A stretch of 64,000 bases of DNA, from contig NZ_WELI01000002.1 in NCBI RefSeq assembly GCF_009184635.1, positions 682,001-746,000 on the forward strand, in the 5' to 3' direction. The translations under genes were made by a program, and so were the position numbers. The notes under the pieces were generated by a model. That model was not told the origin of the DNA and made no database searches. It saw nothing but the letters and a program-made list of their open reading frames with translations. Positions 9,146 to 46,632 of this stretch are shown piece after piece. The DNA comes from Rudanella paleaurantiibacter. GTDB taxonomy: Bacteria > Bacteroidota > Bacteroidia > Cytophagales > Spirosomataceae. Position 1 is the first letter of the stretch; each line of letters opens with the position of its first letter.

Positions 9146-9976
9146 TTAGAGTTTCCCCTGCCAGGTTGTATAACGTTCAAATACGGCCAGGCCGTTCGGC
9201 TCGGCCCCAAAAATCCCGTAAACTGTAGAGCCTGAGCCCGTCATAGCGGCATACACAGCCCCTAACTCGTACATCTGGGCTTTGAGCTCACCCAAAACAG
9301 GATACCGGGGGAACAGGCTATCTTCAAAATCGTTGTGGACCGTGTGCCGCCACTCGCTCAGGGGCGCTTCGAGCCGGGTACGCAGGGGCACATCGGGCTG
9401 CTGAGGGCGCACACCCGCGTAGGCTTCGGCCGTTGAAATAGCCAGATTCGGATACACCAGCACAATGTGATACCCCGTCAGGTCAACGGCAAGCGACTCA
9501 AACACATCCCCTTTCTCGACGCAGTACATGGGTCGGTTCTGGATAAAAAACGCGCAGTCGGCACCGAGCGGGCGGGCGTATTCCTCCAGCTGCGCCAGGC
9601 TCAGCCCCAGCCTAAACATACCATTAAGGTGCTTGAGGGTAAGGGCAGCATCGGCCGAACCACCACCGAGCCCGGCCCCAATGGGCACAATTTTGTGCAG
9701 GTGCATTTTCACAGGCGGCAGGTCAAAATCGGCCCGGAGGGCTTCGTAGGCCCGCACACAAAGGTTATTAGAAGCCGAGGGATTACCCGGAATCGGTATA
9801 CCGGTAGCGGTGAATTGAACCGGCGCAGGAGCCTCCCCGGCTGATAAGGGAATGATTTCCAGCACGTCGGACCAAGCCACCGGGTAGAAACAGGATTGGA
9901 GATTATGGTAGCCGTCGGGTCGGCGTTGGGTAATCTGAAGACCGATATTGATTTTGCAGTTGGGAAAACCGAGCAT
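9146..9976 (-). CDS. ispE: 4-diphosphocytidyl-2-C-methyl-D-erythritol kinase
   Basis: 276 aa GHMP kinase of the MEP isoprenoid pathway; phosphorylates CDP-methylerythritol at the 2-position using ATP. The ATP-binding glycine loop PIGAGLGGGSADAA is at about residues 90-103, the N-terminal Lys-Asn type motif is PNCKINIGLQ, and the third GHMP motif is MTGSGSTVYG near residue 250. The frame is open six codons further upstream (to 9994), but MLGFPNCKINIGL matches the usual start, and a TATTTTTG promoter box sits only a few bases in front of it. It reads into the oxidase subunit III gene with a 6-nt gap. Confidence 0.92.
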   Translation of the reverse strand: MLGFPNCKINIGLQITQRRPDGYHNLQSCFYPVAWSDVLEIIPLSAGEAPAPVQFTATGIPIPGNPSASNNLCVRAYEALRADFDLPPVKMHLHKIVPIGAGLGGGSADAALTLKHLNGMFRLGLSLAQLEEYARPLGADCAFFIQNRPMYCVEKGDVFESLAVDLTGYHIVLVYPNLAISTAEAYAGVRPQQPDVPLRTRLEAPLSEWRHTVHNDFEDSLFPRYPVLGELKAQMYELGAVYAAMTGSGSTVYGIFGAEPNGLAVFERYTTWQGKL

Positions 9977-41701: not shown

Positions 41702-42523
41702 ATGCACTACGGATATCTGAACGGCACCGTCCGACCTGTCGATGAACTGAACATCGGAATCACCGATCTGAGTTTATTGCGCGGCTACGGCCTGTTCGAC
41801 TATTTCCTGACTTACAACGGTCGACCTTTCCAGTGGGACTGGTACTGGGAGCGGTTTCAGAATTCGGCTGCGGGTCTGCGTCTGCCTCTACCCATGAGCA
41901 AAGACGAGACGTACGCTGTGGTGATGGACCTCATTGGTCGGGCCGGTGGGGCCGATGTGGCTTTTCGGTTTGTGCTGACGGGTGGCTACTCGGCCGACAG
42001 CATCAGTATCGGGCAACCCAACCTGCTCATCATGACCGAGGATATTCACCCGGTGCCGGGCGTGCAATACGAAGCGGGCATCCGGGTGATGCTCGACGAA
42101 TACGTGCGGGATATGGCCGAGATTAAAAGCACCGATTACAAACGAGTCATCCTGAAAGCCCTGGATATTCGGGCGGCCGGAGCGTCGGACTTGCTCTACC
42201 ACAAAGACGGTGAAATCAGCGAGTTGAGCCGGAGCAACTTTTTTCTGGTGAAAGGCAACACACTTGTTACACCCAATCGGCACATTCTGCGGGGTATCAC
42301 CCGCCGAACTGTAATCGAACTGGCTAAACCCGACTTTGTTGTGCACGAACGACCGGTATTGCTTTCGGAGTTGCAGGATGCCGACGAGGCCTTCACTACC
42401 AGCTCAACCAAACGGGTGCTGCCTATTGTACAGGTCGGCGACCTCACCATTGGTGACGGGCAGGTAGGCCCCAAATCGCGGTTTTTGTTGCAACGGTTCG
42501 ATGAGTTGGTGGCAAAATGGTAG
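41702..42523 (+). CDS. Class IV PLP aminotransferase/lyase (PabC-like)
   Basis: 273 aa from the ATG at 41702 (MHYGYLNGTVRPVDELNIGITDLSLLRGYGLFDYFLTYNG). Fold-type IV PLP enzyme: the catalytic Lys is in the STDYKRVILKALDI stretch (about residue 147), and the cofactor-binding ISELSRSNFFLVKGNTLVTP and HILRGITRRTVIELA follow (about 180-215). The family includes 4-amino-4-deoxychorismate lyase, D-amino acid and branched-chain aminotransferases; substrate is uncertain. Its 3' end contains the promoter of the histidine leader. Probably cotranscribed with ettA. Confidence 0.8.
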   Translation: MHYGYLNGTVRPVDELNIGITDLSLLRGYGLFDYFLTYNGRPFQWDWYWERFQNSAAGLRLPLPMSKDETYAVVMDLIGRAGGADVAFRFVLTGGYSADSISIGQPNLLIMTEDIHPVPGVQYEAGIRVMLDEYVRDMAEIKSTDYKRVILKALDIRAAGASDLLYHKDGEISELSRSNFFLVKGNTLVTPNRHILRGITRRTVIELAKPDFVVHERPVLLSELQDADEAFTTSSTKRVLPIVQVGDLTIGDGQVGPKSRFLLQRFDELVAKW

Positions 42524-42539
42524 CCATCTTGTATCTTTG
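42506..42539 (+). promoter_or_regulatory. Promoter of the histidine operon
   Basis: TTG at 42506-42508, 23-nt spacer, TATCTTTG at 42532-42539 (TAnnTTTG). The leader ATG follows only 4 nt after the box, so the leader peptide would be read from a nearly leaderless mRNA. Confidence 0.55.
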
Positions 42540-42543
42540 TACC

Positions 42544-42594
42544 ATGTTCAGCACAAAGACAGTACATCACCACCATCATTCGATTTGCCCCTAA
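42544..42594 (+). CDS. hisL: Histidine operon leader peptide (five consecutive His codons)
   Basis: A 16-codon frame, MFSTKTVHHHHHSICP followed by TAA. The five His codons run from 42565 to 42579. It sits between a TAnnTTTG promoter and an intrinsic terminator, directly ahead of hisH. In enterobacteria, ribosome stalling at such a run of His codons controls transcription of the his operon; the same arrangement is visible here. The segment GCAGAAC (42597-42603), right after the stop codon, is complementary to GTTCTGC (42664-42670) in the terminator's 5' arm, so it can act as antiterminator when the ribosome stalls upstream. Confidence 0.82.
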   Translation: MFSTKTVHHHHHSICP

Positions 42595-42657
42595 GGCAGA
42601 ACGATGCGGTTTGTTTTGTGCTTTTGCAAGAAATTGGCAACACACACAATACACAAG

Positions 42658-42689
42658 AGCCCGGTTCTGCACCCAGAGCCGGGCTTTTT
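42658..42689 (+). terminator. His attenuator terminator
   Basis: A 12-bp stem (42658-42669 with 42674-42685, one G-U pair), 4-nt loop and a run of T (42685-42689). It ends 12 nt before the hisH ATG. Its 5' arm overlaps the antiterminator partner (42664-42670), making the two structures mutually exclusive. Confidence 0.85.
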
Positions 42690-42701
42690 GATTGGTACAA
42701 T

Positions 42702-43295
42702 ATGAAAACCGTCATTATCAAATACAATGCAGGCAACGTTCAGTCGGTGATGTACGCCCTCGACCGAATCGGTGCGAGCTACCTCCTGACCGACGACGAA
42801 GCCGAAATCCGGTCGGCCGACAAGGTTATTTTTCCCGGCGTGGGCGAAGCCAGTACCGCTATGGCGTACCTGCGCGAACGCGGCCTCGACCGCCTGATTC
42901 CGTCGCTGAAACAACCTGTGCTGGGCACGTGTATCGGCATGCAGCTAATGTGTCGGCATTCTGAAGAGAACAACACGACCTGCATGGGCATTTTCGATAT
43001 TGATGTACGCCGACTGCCCGCGGCCGATGGCCTCAAAGTGCCGCACATGGGCTGGAACAACATCAACCAATTGCGCGGGCCACTCACCAACGGCCTGCCC
43101 GATAACGCCTACATGTATTTCGTACACAGCTACGCGGCCGACGTGTGCCCCGAAACTGTGGCCGTGTGCGAATACGGGCGGCCGTTCAGCGCCATGCTAC
43201 AGAAAGACAACTTTTACGCGGCCCAGTTTCACGCCGAAATCAGTGGGAACGTGGGGCAGCGCGTGCTCGAAAACTTTTTGAATCGTTCGCTTTAA
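42702..43295 (+). CDS. hisH: Imidazole glycerol phosphate synthase subunit HisH
   Basis: 197 aa class I glutamine amidotransferase that feeds ammonia to HisF. Start ATG 42702 (MKTVIIKYNAGNVQSVMYAL) is the usual one; the frame is open upstream but crosses the attenuator. PGVGEAS, the nucleophile Cys in LGTCIGMQLM (about 80), FVHSYAAD, and the His-Glu of QFHAEISG (about 180-182) are present; the common HPE triad motif reads HAE here, retaining His and Glu. First structural gene after the attenuator. Confidence 0.95.
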   Translation: MKTVIIKYNAGNVQSVMYALDRIGASYLLTDDEAEIRSADKVIFPGVGEASTAMAYLRERGLDRLIPSLKQPVLGTCIGMQLMCRHSEENNTTCMGIFDIDVRRLPAADGLKVPHMGWNNINQLRGPLTNGLPDNAYMYFVHSYAADVCPETVAVCEYGRPFSAMLQKDNFYAAQFHAEISGNVGQRVLENFLNRSL

Positions 43296-43297
43296 CC

Positions 43298-43336
43298 GGG
43301 TAGGCGGCTCCGTTGTGGCAACGGAGCCGCCTACCC
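43298..43336. repeat. Perfect hairpin, 18-bp arms, hisH-hisA gap
   Basis: 43298-43315 and 43319-43336 are exact reverse complements with a 3-nt loop and no T-run. It starts 3 nt after the hisH stop and could stabilise the upstream mRNA or tune hisA translation. Confidence 0.88.
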
Positions 43337-43346
43337 AATACCGTTT

Positions 43347-44066
43347 ATGCACATTATTCCCGCAATTGACCTGATCGACGGCAAGGCCGTTCGGCTTACG
43401 CAGGGCGACTACAACCAGAAAAAAGAATACAACGCCCGCCCGCTTGAGGTAGCCCAGCAGTTTGAAGACGCGGGCCTGACCCGGCTGCATCTGGTAGACC
43501 TGGACGGGGCCAAACAAAAGCGCGTTATCAACTGGAAAGTACTCGAACTGATTGCGACCAAAACCCGACTTCATATCGACTTTGGGGGCGGGGTGCAGTC
43601 AGACGACGACCTGCGGACGGTGTTTGAATCGGGCGCGAAGCAGGTTACCGGAGGCAGTATAGCGGTCAAAAATCCCGACTTGTTTGAGCGTTGGCTTACT
43701 CAATACGGCCCCGAGGCCATTATCCTGGGTGCCGACGCCAAAAACGAGAAAATCGCCGTGAGTGGTTGGGAAGAAGGCACCGATGTATGGGTGTACGACT
43801 TCGTGGAGAAGTACCTCGAAAAAGGCATCCGGTACGTAATCAGCACCGATGTGGCCAAAGACGGGCTGTTGCAGGGTCCCTCGTTCGATTTGTACCGTAA
43901 CCTACAGGAGCGGTCGGCCGATTTGCAGATTATTGCCAGCGGGGGCGTTGCCAACATGGGCGATATTGAAAAACTGGCCGAAATGAACCTCTTCGGGGTG
44001 ATTGTAGGCAAGGCCATTTACGAAGGTCGCGTGACCTTGAAAGAGTTGATGGCACTGAATAGTTAG
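43347..44066 (+). CDS. hisA: HisA, ProFAR isomerase
   Basis: 239 aa TIM barrel catalysing the Amadori rearrangement of ProFAR to PRFAR. The N-terminal IPAIDLIDGKAVRLTQGDY carries the first catalytic Asp (about residue 8); LHLVDLDGAK, LHIDFGGGVQSDDDL, the second catalytic Asp region YVISTDVAKDGLLQGPSFDLY (about 128-134) and IASGGVANMGDI phosphate-binding loop are intact. It lies 51 nt after hisH, with the hairpin in between. Confidence 0.95.
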   Translation: MHIIPAIDLIDGKAVRLTQGDYNQKKEYNARPLEVAQQFEDAGLTRLHLVDLDGAKQKRVINWKVLELIATKTRLHIDFGGGVQSDDDLRTVFESGAKQVTGGSIAVKNPDLFERWLTQYGPEAIILGADAKNEKIAVSGWEEGTDVWVYDFVEKYLEKGIRYVISTDVAKDGLLQGPSFDLYRNLQERSADLQIIASGGVANMGDIEKLAEMNLFGVIVGKAIYEGRVTLKELMALNS

Positions 44067-44075
44067 CTTTGCCGT

Positions 44076-44780
44076 ATGAGCCGCATCGTGCTACTCCTTT
44101 TCTGGTTGGTTTACTGGCCCGCCTGTGCTGCCCCGGAAGACTCCACGCAGGTACAGGCTCGGTTTGATGCGTTGGCCCAAAAAGCCGGTGTAAAAACTCT
44201 GGTGCTGAAACCGGGCAACTATCAGGTGCTCATCTGGACTAAAGTAAGCCTGGCCTACGGCGACGCCCAGAAGCTTTACGTGCTCGACCGAACCGATGCA
44301 GGCTTATTTCTGTCCGATTATTCGCTGAATTGGGCACAAAATCGTTTCAAAAGTTCTGAGCGTTTAAAACACAGAAAAAGAATAGACCAGGCTATCTGGA
44401 ATCAGTTAGTGTCTGACGGGCTGCTGACTTTACCCGATCAGTCGGCGCTTCGAGGCCAGATTTTTCCTCCATCCAAACCAGCTTCGACCACCACAACTGT
44501 GCATGTCGACAAGGAAGGCGAGGTAACAATAAAAGCCCCAAAGAGCACAGAGAATTACGTAATCATTGGCGACGGAGTCAGCTACCGTTTCGACATTTTC
44601 TCGGCCGAGGGCCATCGAACGTACAAATACCATTGCCCGGCCGGGTACGGAAGAGTCCGAACTAAAGTAATTGAGCTTCAGCAGGTAGTGTCGATATTGA
44701 AGCAGGTATTTTCTCTCGTTAAAAACCCACCAGAAATCTGCCGACGCATCAATCAGCCTAAACCCGTTTATACCACATGA
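44076..44780 (+). CDS. Exported hypothetical protein inside the his operon
   Basis: 234 aa with a signal peptide (MSRIVLLLFWLVYWPACAAPE). The mature protein has strand-like segments (TLVLKPGNYQVLIWTKVSLAYGDAQKLYVLD, YVIIGDGVSYRFDIFSAEGHRTYKYHCPAGYG) and a C-terminal helix (VIELQQVVSILKQVFSLV). No family recognised. It begins 9 nt after hisA and overlaps the next gene by 4 nt (ATGA), so it is part of the operon although no histidine-pathway role is known. Its second half (about 44330-44760) is AT-richer than the flanking his genes, which hints at later acquisition. Confidence 0.65.
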   Translation: MSRIVLLLFWLVYWPACAAPEDSTQVQARFDALAQKAGVKTLVLKPGNYQVLIWTKVSLAYGDAQKLYVLDRTDAGLFLSDYSLNWAQNRFKSSERLKHRKRIDQAIWNQLVSDGLLTLPDQSALRGQIFPPSKPASTTTTVHVDKEGEVTIKAPKSTENYVIIGDGVSYRFDIFSAEGHRTYKYHCPAGYGRVRTKVIELQQVVSILKQVFSLVKNPPEICRRINQPKPVYTT

Positions 44781-45202
44781 CCGAAAACTACACCATCAGC
44801 ACCGACAAATCCCGGCTCGACCTGAACGTGATTCACGGGTTTTTGAGTCGAGAATCGTACTGGGCGCAGAATATCCCACTCGAAAAAGTGGAAAAAGCGA
44901 TGGCACACTCGCTTTGTTTTGGGGTCTACGCACCCGATGGACAGCAGGTTGGGTTCGCCCGCGTCGTAACCGACTACACCACGGTAGCGTACCTGTCCGA
45001 CGTATTTGTGGTGGAGAGCCACCGGGGCCGGGGCCTTTCGAAAAAACTGGTTCAGTACATCACCGAATACCCCGAATTACAGGGGCTACGTCGGTGGATT
45101 CTGGTCACACAGGACGCACAAGGCCTTTACCGTCAGTTTGGCTTCGTCAATCCCGAAGAACCCCACTGGTACATGCACCGTAAATTATTTACCAGCTACT
45201 AA
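44777..45202 (+). CDS. GNAT family acetyltransferase
   Basis: 141 aa. The acetyl-CoA-binding core is [24 protein letters not shown] (about 74-97; R-G-x-G/A type loop RGRGLS), with [26 protein letters not shown] before it and [29 protein letters not shown] after it. It resembles small GNATs with a GFARVVTD motif common in Bacteroidota. Substrate unknown. Start overlaps the upstream stop (ATGA) and its stop overlaps the hisF start (TAATG), so it is translationally coupled in the his operon. Confidence 0.85.
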
Positions 45203-46002
45203 TGCTAACGAAACGTATTATTCCCTGTCTTGATATCAAAGACGGGCGTACCGTAAAAGGCACCAATTTCGTAAACCTGCGCGATGCCGGTGATCCCGTA
45301 GAGTTGGGGGCTATCTACGCCCGTCAAGGGGCCGACGAACTTGTTTTTCTGGACATCACGGCCACTGTCGACGAGCGCAAAACCCTGATTGAGCTTGTCC
45401 GGCGGGTAGCCCATGCCGTCAATATCCCGTTTACGGTGGGCGGAGGTATTTCGTCGGTGGCCGATGTATCGGCGCTGCTCAACGCCGGTGCCGATAAGGT
45501 TTCAATCAACTCCTCGGCCGTGCGCAACCCCGCCCTGATCGATCAGCTGGCCCTTGAATTTGGCAGTCAGTGTATTGTGGTGGCTATCGACACGCGCTGG
45601 ATTCCTGCCAGCGATGATACCGCTTCAAACGAGATGTCATCGCCAAGACAACACATCGTACATACGCACGGGGGCCGCAAACCCACCCACCTGCGCACGC
45701 TCGAATGGGCTAAAGAAGTGGAGAACCGGGGCGCTGGCGAAATTTTGCTCACCTCGATGGATACCGACGGTACCAAAGCGGGCTTTGCCCTCGAACTGAC
45801 GGCGGCCGTATCGGGGGCGGCCCACATTCCGGTTATTGCGTCGGGAGGGGCGGGCACTATGGACCATTTTGTAGATGTTTTTACCACCGGCAAAGCCGAT
45901 GCCGGGCTGGCAGCCAGTATTTTTCACTTCAAAGAGATCGATATTCCCGAACTCAAGCAGTACTTAGCCCAACAGGGTATTCCGATGCGCCTGACGAATT
46001 AG
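45202..46002 (+). CDS. hisF: Imidazole glycerol phosphate synthase subunit HisF
   Basis: 266 aa TIM barrel cyclase; with HisH it makes imidazole glycerol phosphate and [22 protein letters not shown] (catalytic Asp about 11), [37 protein letters not shown] (second catalytic Asp about residue 143) and [11 protein letters not shown] are intact. The loop after VVAIDTRW (about residues 134-152, [20 protein letters not shown]) is roughly ten residues longer than in well-studied HisF proteins. The start codon overlaps the GNAT stop. Confidence 0.95.
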
Positions 46003-46026: not shown

Positions 46027-46632
46027 ATGACAACGATTGATTTCAGCAAATCGCCCGACGGCCTCGTCCCCGCCGTTGTGCAGGACGAACAAACCGGCAA
46101 AGTGCTCATGGTGGGCTACATGAATGAGGAAGCCTACCACAAAACACAGGCCGAGGGCGTGGTTACGTTTTTCAGCCGGAGCAAAGGTCGGCTCTGGACC
46201 AAGGGTGAAACGTCTAACAACTTTCTGCACGTTCGGCAGATCCTGATCGACTGCGACGGTGACACCTTGCTCATTAAGGCATCGCCTGCGGGCCCAACCT
46301 GCCATACCGGCGCCGATACCTGTTTCGATGAAGTAAACGGAGGAAAAGGGCAGTTTCTGAACTACCTGCAAGGCATTATTCACGACCGACGCGTAAACCC
46401 TACCGAAAAATCGTACACCACATCGCTGTTCAACCGGGGGGTCAATAAAATTGCGCAAAAGGTTGGCGAAGAAGCCGTTGAACTGGTGATCGAAGCCAAA
46501 GACAATAACGACGACCTGTTTCGGGGCGAAGCCGCCGATTTGCTGTTCCACTTTCTGGTGTTGCTCGAACAGAAAAACATCGACCTCGACGAGGTTATCA
46601 CGATTTTACAGGGCCGTCACGCCGGAAAATAG
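46027..46632 (+). CDS. hisIE: Bifunctional HisIE (PRA-CH cyclohydrolase / PRA-PH pyrophosphohydrolase)
   Basis: 201 aa fusion catalysing steps 2 and 3 of histidine synthesis. The N-terminal HisI part has LVPAVVQDEQTGKVLMVGYMNEEAY, TFFSRSKGRLWTKGETSNNFLHV, DCDGDTLLIKASPAGPTCHTGADTCF with the zinc/magnesium Asp and Cys ligands. The C-terminal HisE part (about 110-201) is a MazG-like helical domain: KVGEEAVELVIEAKDNNDDLFRGEAADLLFHFLVLLEQ. It starts 25 nt after hisF and ends the visible his cluster; hisG, hisD, hisC and hisB are not in the window. Confidence 0.95.
   Translation: MTTIDFSKSPDGLVPAVVQDEQTGKVLMVGYMNEEAYHKTQAEGVVTFFSRSKGRLWTKGETSNNFLHVRQILIDCDGDTLLIKASPAGPTCHTGADTCFDEVNGGKGQFLNYLQGIIHDRRVNPTEKSYTTSLFNRGVNKIAQKVGEEAVELVIEAKDNNDDLFRGEAADLLFHFLVLLEQKNIDLDEVITILQGRHAGK

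Follow-up and report, generated by a model that had tools for sequence, protein, structure and literature searches.

A conserved candidate histidine attenuator with a predicted leaderless leader peptide upstream of hisH in Rudanella paleaurantiibacter and its relatives

A 64,000-nt stretch of the Rudanella paleaurantiibacter genome (contig NZ_WELI01000002.1, positions 682,001 to 746,000; hereafter the window) carries, directly upstream of hisH, what is very probably a ribosome-mediated leader-peptide transcription attenuator of the genes hisH-hisA-x-GNAT-hisF-hisIE, with a transcription start predicted from the sequence at the AUG of the leader ORF or within a base of it. Along the window, an aminotransferase class IV gene is followed by a -7 promoter box, a histidine-rich leader ORF, an intrinsic terminator, and hisH. 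The coordinates are given in Table 1.

Table 1. Parts of the putative attenuator and genes of the downstream his cluster (positions in the window)
Feature	Position	Strand	Basis
-7 promoter box TATCTTTG (Bacteroidota sigma-A TAnnTTTG)	42532-42539	+	Read directly; columns of 78 non-redundant relatives
Predicted transcription start, A of the leader AUG, +/- 1 base	42544	+	Box position as in Flavobacterium promoters
Leader ORF MFSTKTVHHHHHSICP, 16 codons, with TAA stop (42592-42594)	42544-42594	+	Read directly
Five His codons in a row, CAT CAC CAC CAT CAT	42565-42579	+	Read directly
Antiterminator 5' strand GCAGAAC	42596-42602	+	Pairs with GTTCTGC 42664-42670
Antiterminator inner helices, predicted	within 42606-42660	+	Fold of 42580-42676
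Predicted inner helix pairs	42606-42607/42659-42660, 42610-42614/42653-42657, 42616-42620/42645-42649, 42624-42627/42637-42640	+	Predicted
Intrinsic terminator AGCCCGGTTCTG-CACC-CAGAGCCGGGCT with T-tract	42658-42689	+	Read directly; folded; conserved in relatives
Terminator stem; T-tract	42658-42669 with 42674-42685; 42685-42689	+	Read directly; folded
hisH (IGP synthase amidotransferase subunit)	42702-43295	+	TIGR01855 above cut-off; Pfam GATase
hisA	43347-44066	+	Pfam His_biosynth, E 1.8e-72; hisA/hisF assignment from gene order
Hypothetical protein within the his cluster	44076-44780	+	No Pfam match; 4-nt overlap with next ORF
GNAT acetyltransferase within the his cluster	44777-45202	+	Pfam Acetyltransf_1
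hisF	45202-46002	+	Pfam His_biosynth, E 3.5e-81; hisF/hisA assignment from gene order
hisIE	46027-46632	+	Pfam PRA-CH and PRA-PH

Direct reading of the locus confirmed the 16-codon leader with its five consecutive His codons and the terminator ending 12 nt before the ATG of hisH, as the first-pass annotation had described them, together with the segment GTTCTGC overlapping the 5' arm of the terminator. Its partner GCAGAAC was also present after the stop codon, where GGCAGAAC follows immediately, but had been placed one base too high. Since the gaps between the cluster genes downstream of the attenuator do not exceed 51 nt, hisH-hisA-x-GNAT-hisF-hisIE likely form one operon. The hisG gene of this draft genome is on a different contig, and no comparable leader was found upstream of it.

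Several other elements were observed in and around the cluster. The gap between hisH and hisA contains an almost perfect inverted repeat with arms of about 17 bp (43298-43336), of which the window holds no second copy when up to three mismatches are allowed. The hypothetical gene within the cluster has a TAnnTTTG-N4-ATG arrangement of its own, possibly an internal leaderless promoter. The same arrangement precedes a 276-aa ORF at position 9976 on the minus strand, which may thus be leaderless and whose first residues resemble those of ispE.

The promoter box was compared in 78 non-redundant leaders, chosen by a promoter filter (box-ATG distance of 2-8 nt, then of 3-5 nt). With the A of the ATG as +1, T-12 was found in 97% of them, A-11 in 94%, T-8 in 96%, T-7 in 100%, T-6 in 97%, and G-5 in 90%; none had a G at -10 or -9. 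TAnnTTTG or TAnnTTTA was separated from the leader ATG by 4 nt in 73 leaders, in which the box spans -12 to -5, by 3 nt in three, and by 5 nt in two. Of 80 leaders collected without a promoter filter, 78 carried TTTG 2-7 nt upstream of the ATG. In Flavobacterium psychrophilum, where start sites were mapped, the sigma-A box spans -12 to -5 relative to them (PMC9723704). The same preferences are given for F. johnsoniae (T-12, A-11, T-8, T-7, T-6, G-5, G nearly absent at -10 and -9), with start sites predicted from RNA-seq and 241 promoters picked for a spacing of 4-5 nt (PMC6847099). Because the position of the box matches the start-site spacing of Flavobacterium, we predict that transcription starts within a base of the A of the leader AUG, which would make the ORF leaderless. 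This prediction was absent from the first-pass annotation, which had proposed a TTG-N23-box promoter. The box part of that proposal held, and the TTG (42506-42508, at -38 to -36) is weakly suggested by an enrichment of T at -35 and -34 upstream of the box in relatives (76% and 73% T). Among named leaders, a 5' UTR of zero length was predicted in 11 of 13, and the His leader is the sole short plus-strand ORF in the window with TAnnTTTG-N4-ATG.

The same attenuator could also be transcribed from a promoter further upstream, with TAnnTTTG constrained for some other reason, and we regard this as unlikely. The start site in the family is a prediction, leaderless mRNAs are a minor class in the phylum (PMC9723704 gives 5.5% for F. 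psychrophilum; in Bacteroides thetaiotaomicron about 3.7% of 5' UTRs are shorter than 10 nt), and nearly all of the box-bearing hisG leaders described below have a short predicted 5' UTR; against this stand the 4-nt spacing, exact in 73 of the 78 leaders, the agreement of the columns with the sigma-A -7 box, including the lack of G at -10 and -9, and the position of the box in the window, which starts only 8 nt past the end of the preceding coding sequence.

The predicted-leaderless leader was followed through the family, in which 194 of 200 genomes contain hisH. The upstream region was examined in 139 of these, and a leader was defined as a short ORF with at least two His codons in six, just 3' of a TAnnTTT or TTTG box. 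Such a promoter-linked ORF, rich in codons for the product amino acid as is characteristic of ribosome-mediated attenuators, was found in 105 of the 139 regions (91 of 139 with at least three His) and in 20 of 33 genera. The His leader upstream of hisH is not a product of chance: in an initial count, in which 13 of the 139 regions were read on the opposite strand (91/139 once corrected), at least three His in six codons occurred in 80/139 regions compared to a mean of 1.55/139 in 20 dinucleotide shuffles, and TTTG-N2-7-ATG with a His leader in 78/139 compared to none in the shuffles. The His run, on whose conservation in relatives the first-pass annotation had staked its reading, is thus retained, and the reading stands unrefuted. 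Both His codons are in use (CAT 234 times and CAC 48 times in the 78 non-redundant leaders), and the peptide sequence varies with its His richness retained.

It is very unlikely that the peptide serves as a microprotein in its own right, for example in metal binding, and that its ORF is no sensor. Clusters of His are able to bind metals, and a leader peptide acting in trans is known, peTrpL of Sinorhizobium meliloti (PMC7298713); however, the leader length ranges from 13 to 26 aa, 9 of the 78 leaders keep only two His, and the ORF is tied to his genes, to a terminator and, in the groups A and B defined below, to a complementary element after its stop codon. Equally remote is an arrangement in which the terminator belongs to the upstream gene, the His-rich ORF is fortuitous or degenerate, and hisH has a promoter further downstream. 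The terminator does lie between two co-directional genes, and in one genome of the same genus, G003, the box is joined to the terminator without a leader, but the array stays with hisH while the upstream gene differs between genera (Aminotran_4 in the window, DUF72 in the three loci tested), the shuffle control yields almost no His leaders, and another genome of the genus, G001, has the same leader peptide although a gene has been inserted between it and hisH.

In G001, the leader is located 1,025 nt upstream of hisH, behind an inserted 224-aa gene with repeated flanks (locus L060, 2219-2893, minus strand), which is probably a REP-associated transposase. The G003 locus (L037), in which the promoter box runs straight into the terminator, comes from an incomplete assembly and is possibly a natural always-off form. 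These two genomes are among the 34 of 139 without a leader (33 without an attenuator, if G001 is counted as having one). The others are all 11 members of genus g31, six of the seven of g57, one each of g4, g15, and g16, and the sole examined member of 12 further genera; three of the leader-negative regions (G011, G035, G065) comprise less than 150 nt of upstream sequence. The 55 of 194 genomes outside the sample belong to g12 (31), g27 (10), g22 (9), g19 (2), g31 (2), and g56 (1). All examined members of g12, g27, g22, g19, and g31 were without an attenuator. Since most of the 55 remaining genomes thus belong to leader-negative genera, the family-wide share should be lower than 105/139.

Two further searches speak for the specificity of the array. 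Among 80 named HisH loci, 13 had a leader of at least three His within 600 nt (three Spirosoma, seven Dyadobacter, two Siphonobacter, and one labelled Cellulophaga sp. BC115SP); no leader was found in the other 67, which include Runella, a Spirosomataceae MAG, and two loci whose upstream sequence is shorter than 600 nt. A covariance model built from the window's group and searched against the genomes of 59 relatives gave ten matches below E 1e-7, one per genome and all upstream of hisH. At E up to 0.01, some match was present in 25 of the 59 genomes, the positions of the weaker matches (E 1e-5 to 0.01) being compared with hisH for some only.

The terminator hairpin of the window had a folding energy of -21.7 kcal/mol (z -6.4 vs. 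shuffles); a simple consensus scan gave no entry for it on the plus strand. An intrinsic terminator between the leader ORF and the first structural gene was recognized by our criteria in 99 of the 105 leader-bearing regions. In these 99 members, the distance from the AUG to the end of the terminator was 116-148 nt (median 142), and hisH followed after 6-129 nt (median 27). The members were sorted by sequence into group A (46 members, the group of the window), B, C (Dyadobacter-like), D (Siphonobacter-like), E, and F.

The proposed antiterminator helix was conserved in group A: in 33 non-redundant members, six GCAGAAC/GTTCTGC pairs were kept in 98% of cells compared to 17.7-51.5% when the same pairing was slid by 1-3 columns, the figures being partly a matter of construction, as membership of the group requires a CAGAAC-like motif no more than 16 nt from the stop codon. 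No antiterminator pair was changed on both sides in these 33 members; the group-A terminator had one pair with changes on both sides, and RNAalifold predicted only the terminator from the group-A alignment. The compensatory changes named in the first-pass annotation as a check were therefore lacking for the antiterminator within the window's group, but both helices differ together between groups (by eye, AAGGAA..GGCT vs. AGCC..TTCCTT in B and GAA-CAGGC vs. GCCTG-A-TTC in D). Duplex energies of the element with the terminator arm were -15.5 kcal/mol on the own arm and -8.6 to -11.0 kcal/mol on those of other groups for A, and -13.8 vs. -9.1 to -12.5 kcal/mol for B. The elements of groups C to F fitted the terminator arm of A equally well as or better than their own.

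Pairing was also compared with shuffled sequences. Over a wide stretch, the mean z was a modest -1.45. In 40 non-redundant members of all groups, the 24 nt after the stop codon paired with the terminator arm better than shuffles at p<0.05 in 16/40 members (mean z -1.49; Fisher p ~8e-14, a value that ignores relatedness), and the stretch from -24 to +24 did so in 14/40 (mean z -1.32). Narrowing the stretch improved the result for groups A and B and the single F member only. For the 24 nt, the mean z was -2.24 in A, -1.8 in B, and -1.6 in the one member of F, and D (-0.53), E (-0.18), and C (+0.97) displayed little or no excess pairing. In the window, the fold of 42580-42676 had an energy of -22.4 kcal/mol and was no more stable than shuffles (z -0.63). 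In this fold, GCAGAAC/GTTCTGC closes a longer predicted hairpin with inner helices, so that the "minimal 7-bp antiterminator" of the first-pass annotation has to be given up. An alternative structure excluding the terminator is thus indicated for the window by complementarity, and the indication is weak for C, D, and E.

In group A, the antiterminator strand starts 0-5 nt past the stop codon (the definition allows 0-16) and 6-20 nt (median 17) past the last His codon. Given the usual size of a ribosome footprint, a ribosome at the stop codon would cover this strand, most of which would be accessible while the ribosome is held at the His codons. The switch would then operate as follows. Transcription would begin at the leader AUG or within a base of it, and a ribosome would bind the 5'-terminal AUG and translate the 16 codons behind RNA polymerase. 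When charged His-tRNA is scarce, the ribosome would stall at the His codons and GCAGAAC would stay free to pair with GTTCTGC of the terminator 5' arm, aided by the inner helices, with read-through into the his genes as the outcome. When His-tRNA is plentiful, the ribosome would reach the stop codon and cover GCAGAAC, and the terminator would form ahead of hisH.

Folds of single Dyadobacter sequences placed the antiterminator 5' strand within the last leader codons (Gly-Arg-Leu-Gly), for which the duplex test gave no support. Nine non-redundant members (L046, L203, and others) share 43 contiguous invariant nucleotides in the stretch between leader and terminator. The 17-nt core of this linker, GTAATAAGGTTGAATAC, was matched exactly in 21 of 150 family genomes, once per genome, and 20 of the 21 copies were within about 225 nt upstream of hisH; the copy of G065 was on another contig.

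Leader-peptide attenuation is a classical mechanism. A comparative prediction of leader-peptide attenuators by Vitreschak et al. in 2004, his included, is said to have named Bacteroidetes/Chlorobi, and the mycobacterial leaderless polycysteine ORFs of Canestrari (2020) are reportedly comparable to the leaders described here. The locus has in common with the enterobacterial hisL (RF00514) the short ORF with a run of His codons, the terminator, the mutually exclusive antiterminator, and the position before his genes. It differs in preceding hisH-hisA-hisF-hisIE rather than a hisG-first operon, in its Bacteroidota promoter and predicted leaderless start, and in an antiterminator strand that begins just after the leader stop codon. 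The hisL logic that the first-pass annotation had seen in the locus is supported by the ordered parts in three-quarters of the examined regions, the varying His-rich peptides, the recurrent terminators, and the complementary segment near the stop codon. A search for membership in the Rfam family His_leader gave no match, either at the gathering score or at E up to 10, and sub-threshold hits of Thr_leader (24 of 55 bits) and Trp_leader (16.3 of 41 bits) over the locus were not taken as membership. The only element recognized in the window at gathering score was a TPP riboswitch (RF00059, 51886-51983, 59.2 bits), located elsewhere than the his locus.

Leaderless leader ORFs are known from other phyla and for other amino acids: leuL, trpL, and ilvL of Streptomyces lividans (PMC8079986) and trpL of S. 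meliloti (PMC7298713) lie at the 5' end of the transcript, as the present leaders are predicted to do, and abound in codons for the amino acid that they sense. In contrast, the present leaders have a Bacteroidota sigma-A promoter, a start that is predicted, and a distribution over 20 of 33 genera. Within the phylum, structured 5' elements at hisG and pheA of F. psychrophilum are described in PMC9723704, whose authors report strong clues for leader-peptide attenuation at amino-acid operons; the his element there is upstream of hisG, not of hisH as here. The occurrence of attenuation in a distant phylum, presented in the first-pass annotation as a surprise, is less surprising in the light of that work. 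His-rich leaders with terminator and antiterminator outside Proteobacteria have also been described in a different phylum, Firmicutes, and the text of that report does not contain the word "Bacteroid" (PMC9413887); a 2021 paper on his genes in the superphylum never uses the word "leader" (PMC8305728). In the open-access full-text literature, which excludes subscription papers, we found no recognizable leaderless leader peptide in Bacteroidota and no recognizable his attenuator in Spirosoma or its relatives. What distinguishes the present case is therefore that a his attenuator with a predicted leaderless ORF is conserved behind a Bacteroidota promoter and has its antiterminator strand after the stop codon; attenuation and leaderless leaders were both known before.

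Leaders were also looked for at other amino-acid genes. Of 51 hisG loci scanned, 34 came from outside the family and 17 from inside it; an ORF with at least three His in six codons lay within 500 nt in 18 of them, 17 of the former and one of the latter (one locus, of G003, is clipped, and a few of the ORFs may be due to chance). With L276 left out, 17 leaders were analyzed further, and 14 of them had TAnnTTTG within 60 nt; the predicted 5' UTR was 3-31 nt in 13 of these and zero in one, from the Spirosoma-type genome G006. From this survey, his leaders seem to be widespread in the phylum and their leaderless form to be characteristic of the family. Six of 14 trpE loci had a WWW leader with TAnnTTTG within 50 nt, two of them with a predicted 5' UTR of zero; the trpE loci of G000 and G002 start inside the gene, with any leader lying outside the scanned sequence. 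In G006 (L304), the WWW leader is downstream of an apparent tRNA gene (by eye) and may be co-transcribed with it. No branched-chain leaders behind TAnnTTTG were found in 13 ilvD loci.

Ribosome-mediated attenuation works only if the ribosome follows close behind RNA polymerase, and conserved switches of this kind make transcription-translation coupling in Bacteroidota directly testable. The predicted 5'-terminal AUG would be a natural regulated use of leaderless translation without Shine-Dalgarno signals, and the branch-specific antiterminator sequences are a natural series for the evolution of such switches. As a tentative set of ideas, to be taken together, the AUG at +1 may be a selected part of the switch that gives ribosomes entry at a fixed time without a Shine-Dalgarno sequence, convergent with the leaderless attenuators of Actinobacteria and rhizobia; ribosomes may keep pace with RNA polymerase in Bacteroidota; and the 43-nt linker of Dyadobacter may add a step of folding or factor binding. 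Judging from the sequences compared here, many Spirosoma-type bacteria probably switch off their histidine-making genes through this attenuator when histidine is plentiful.
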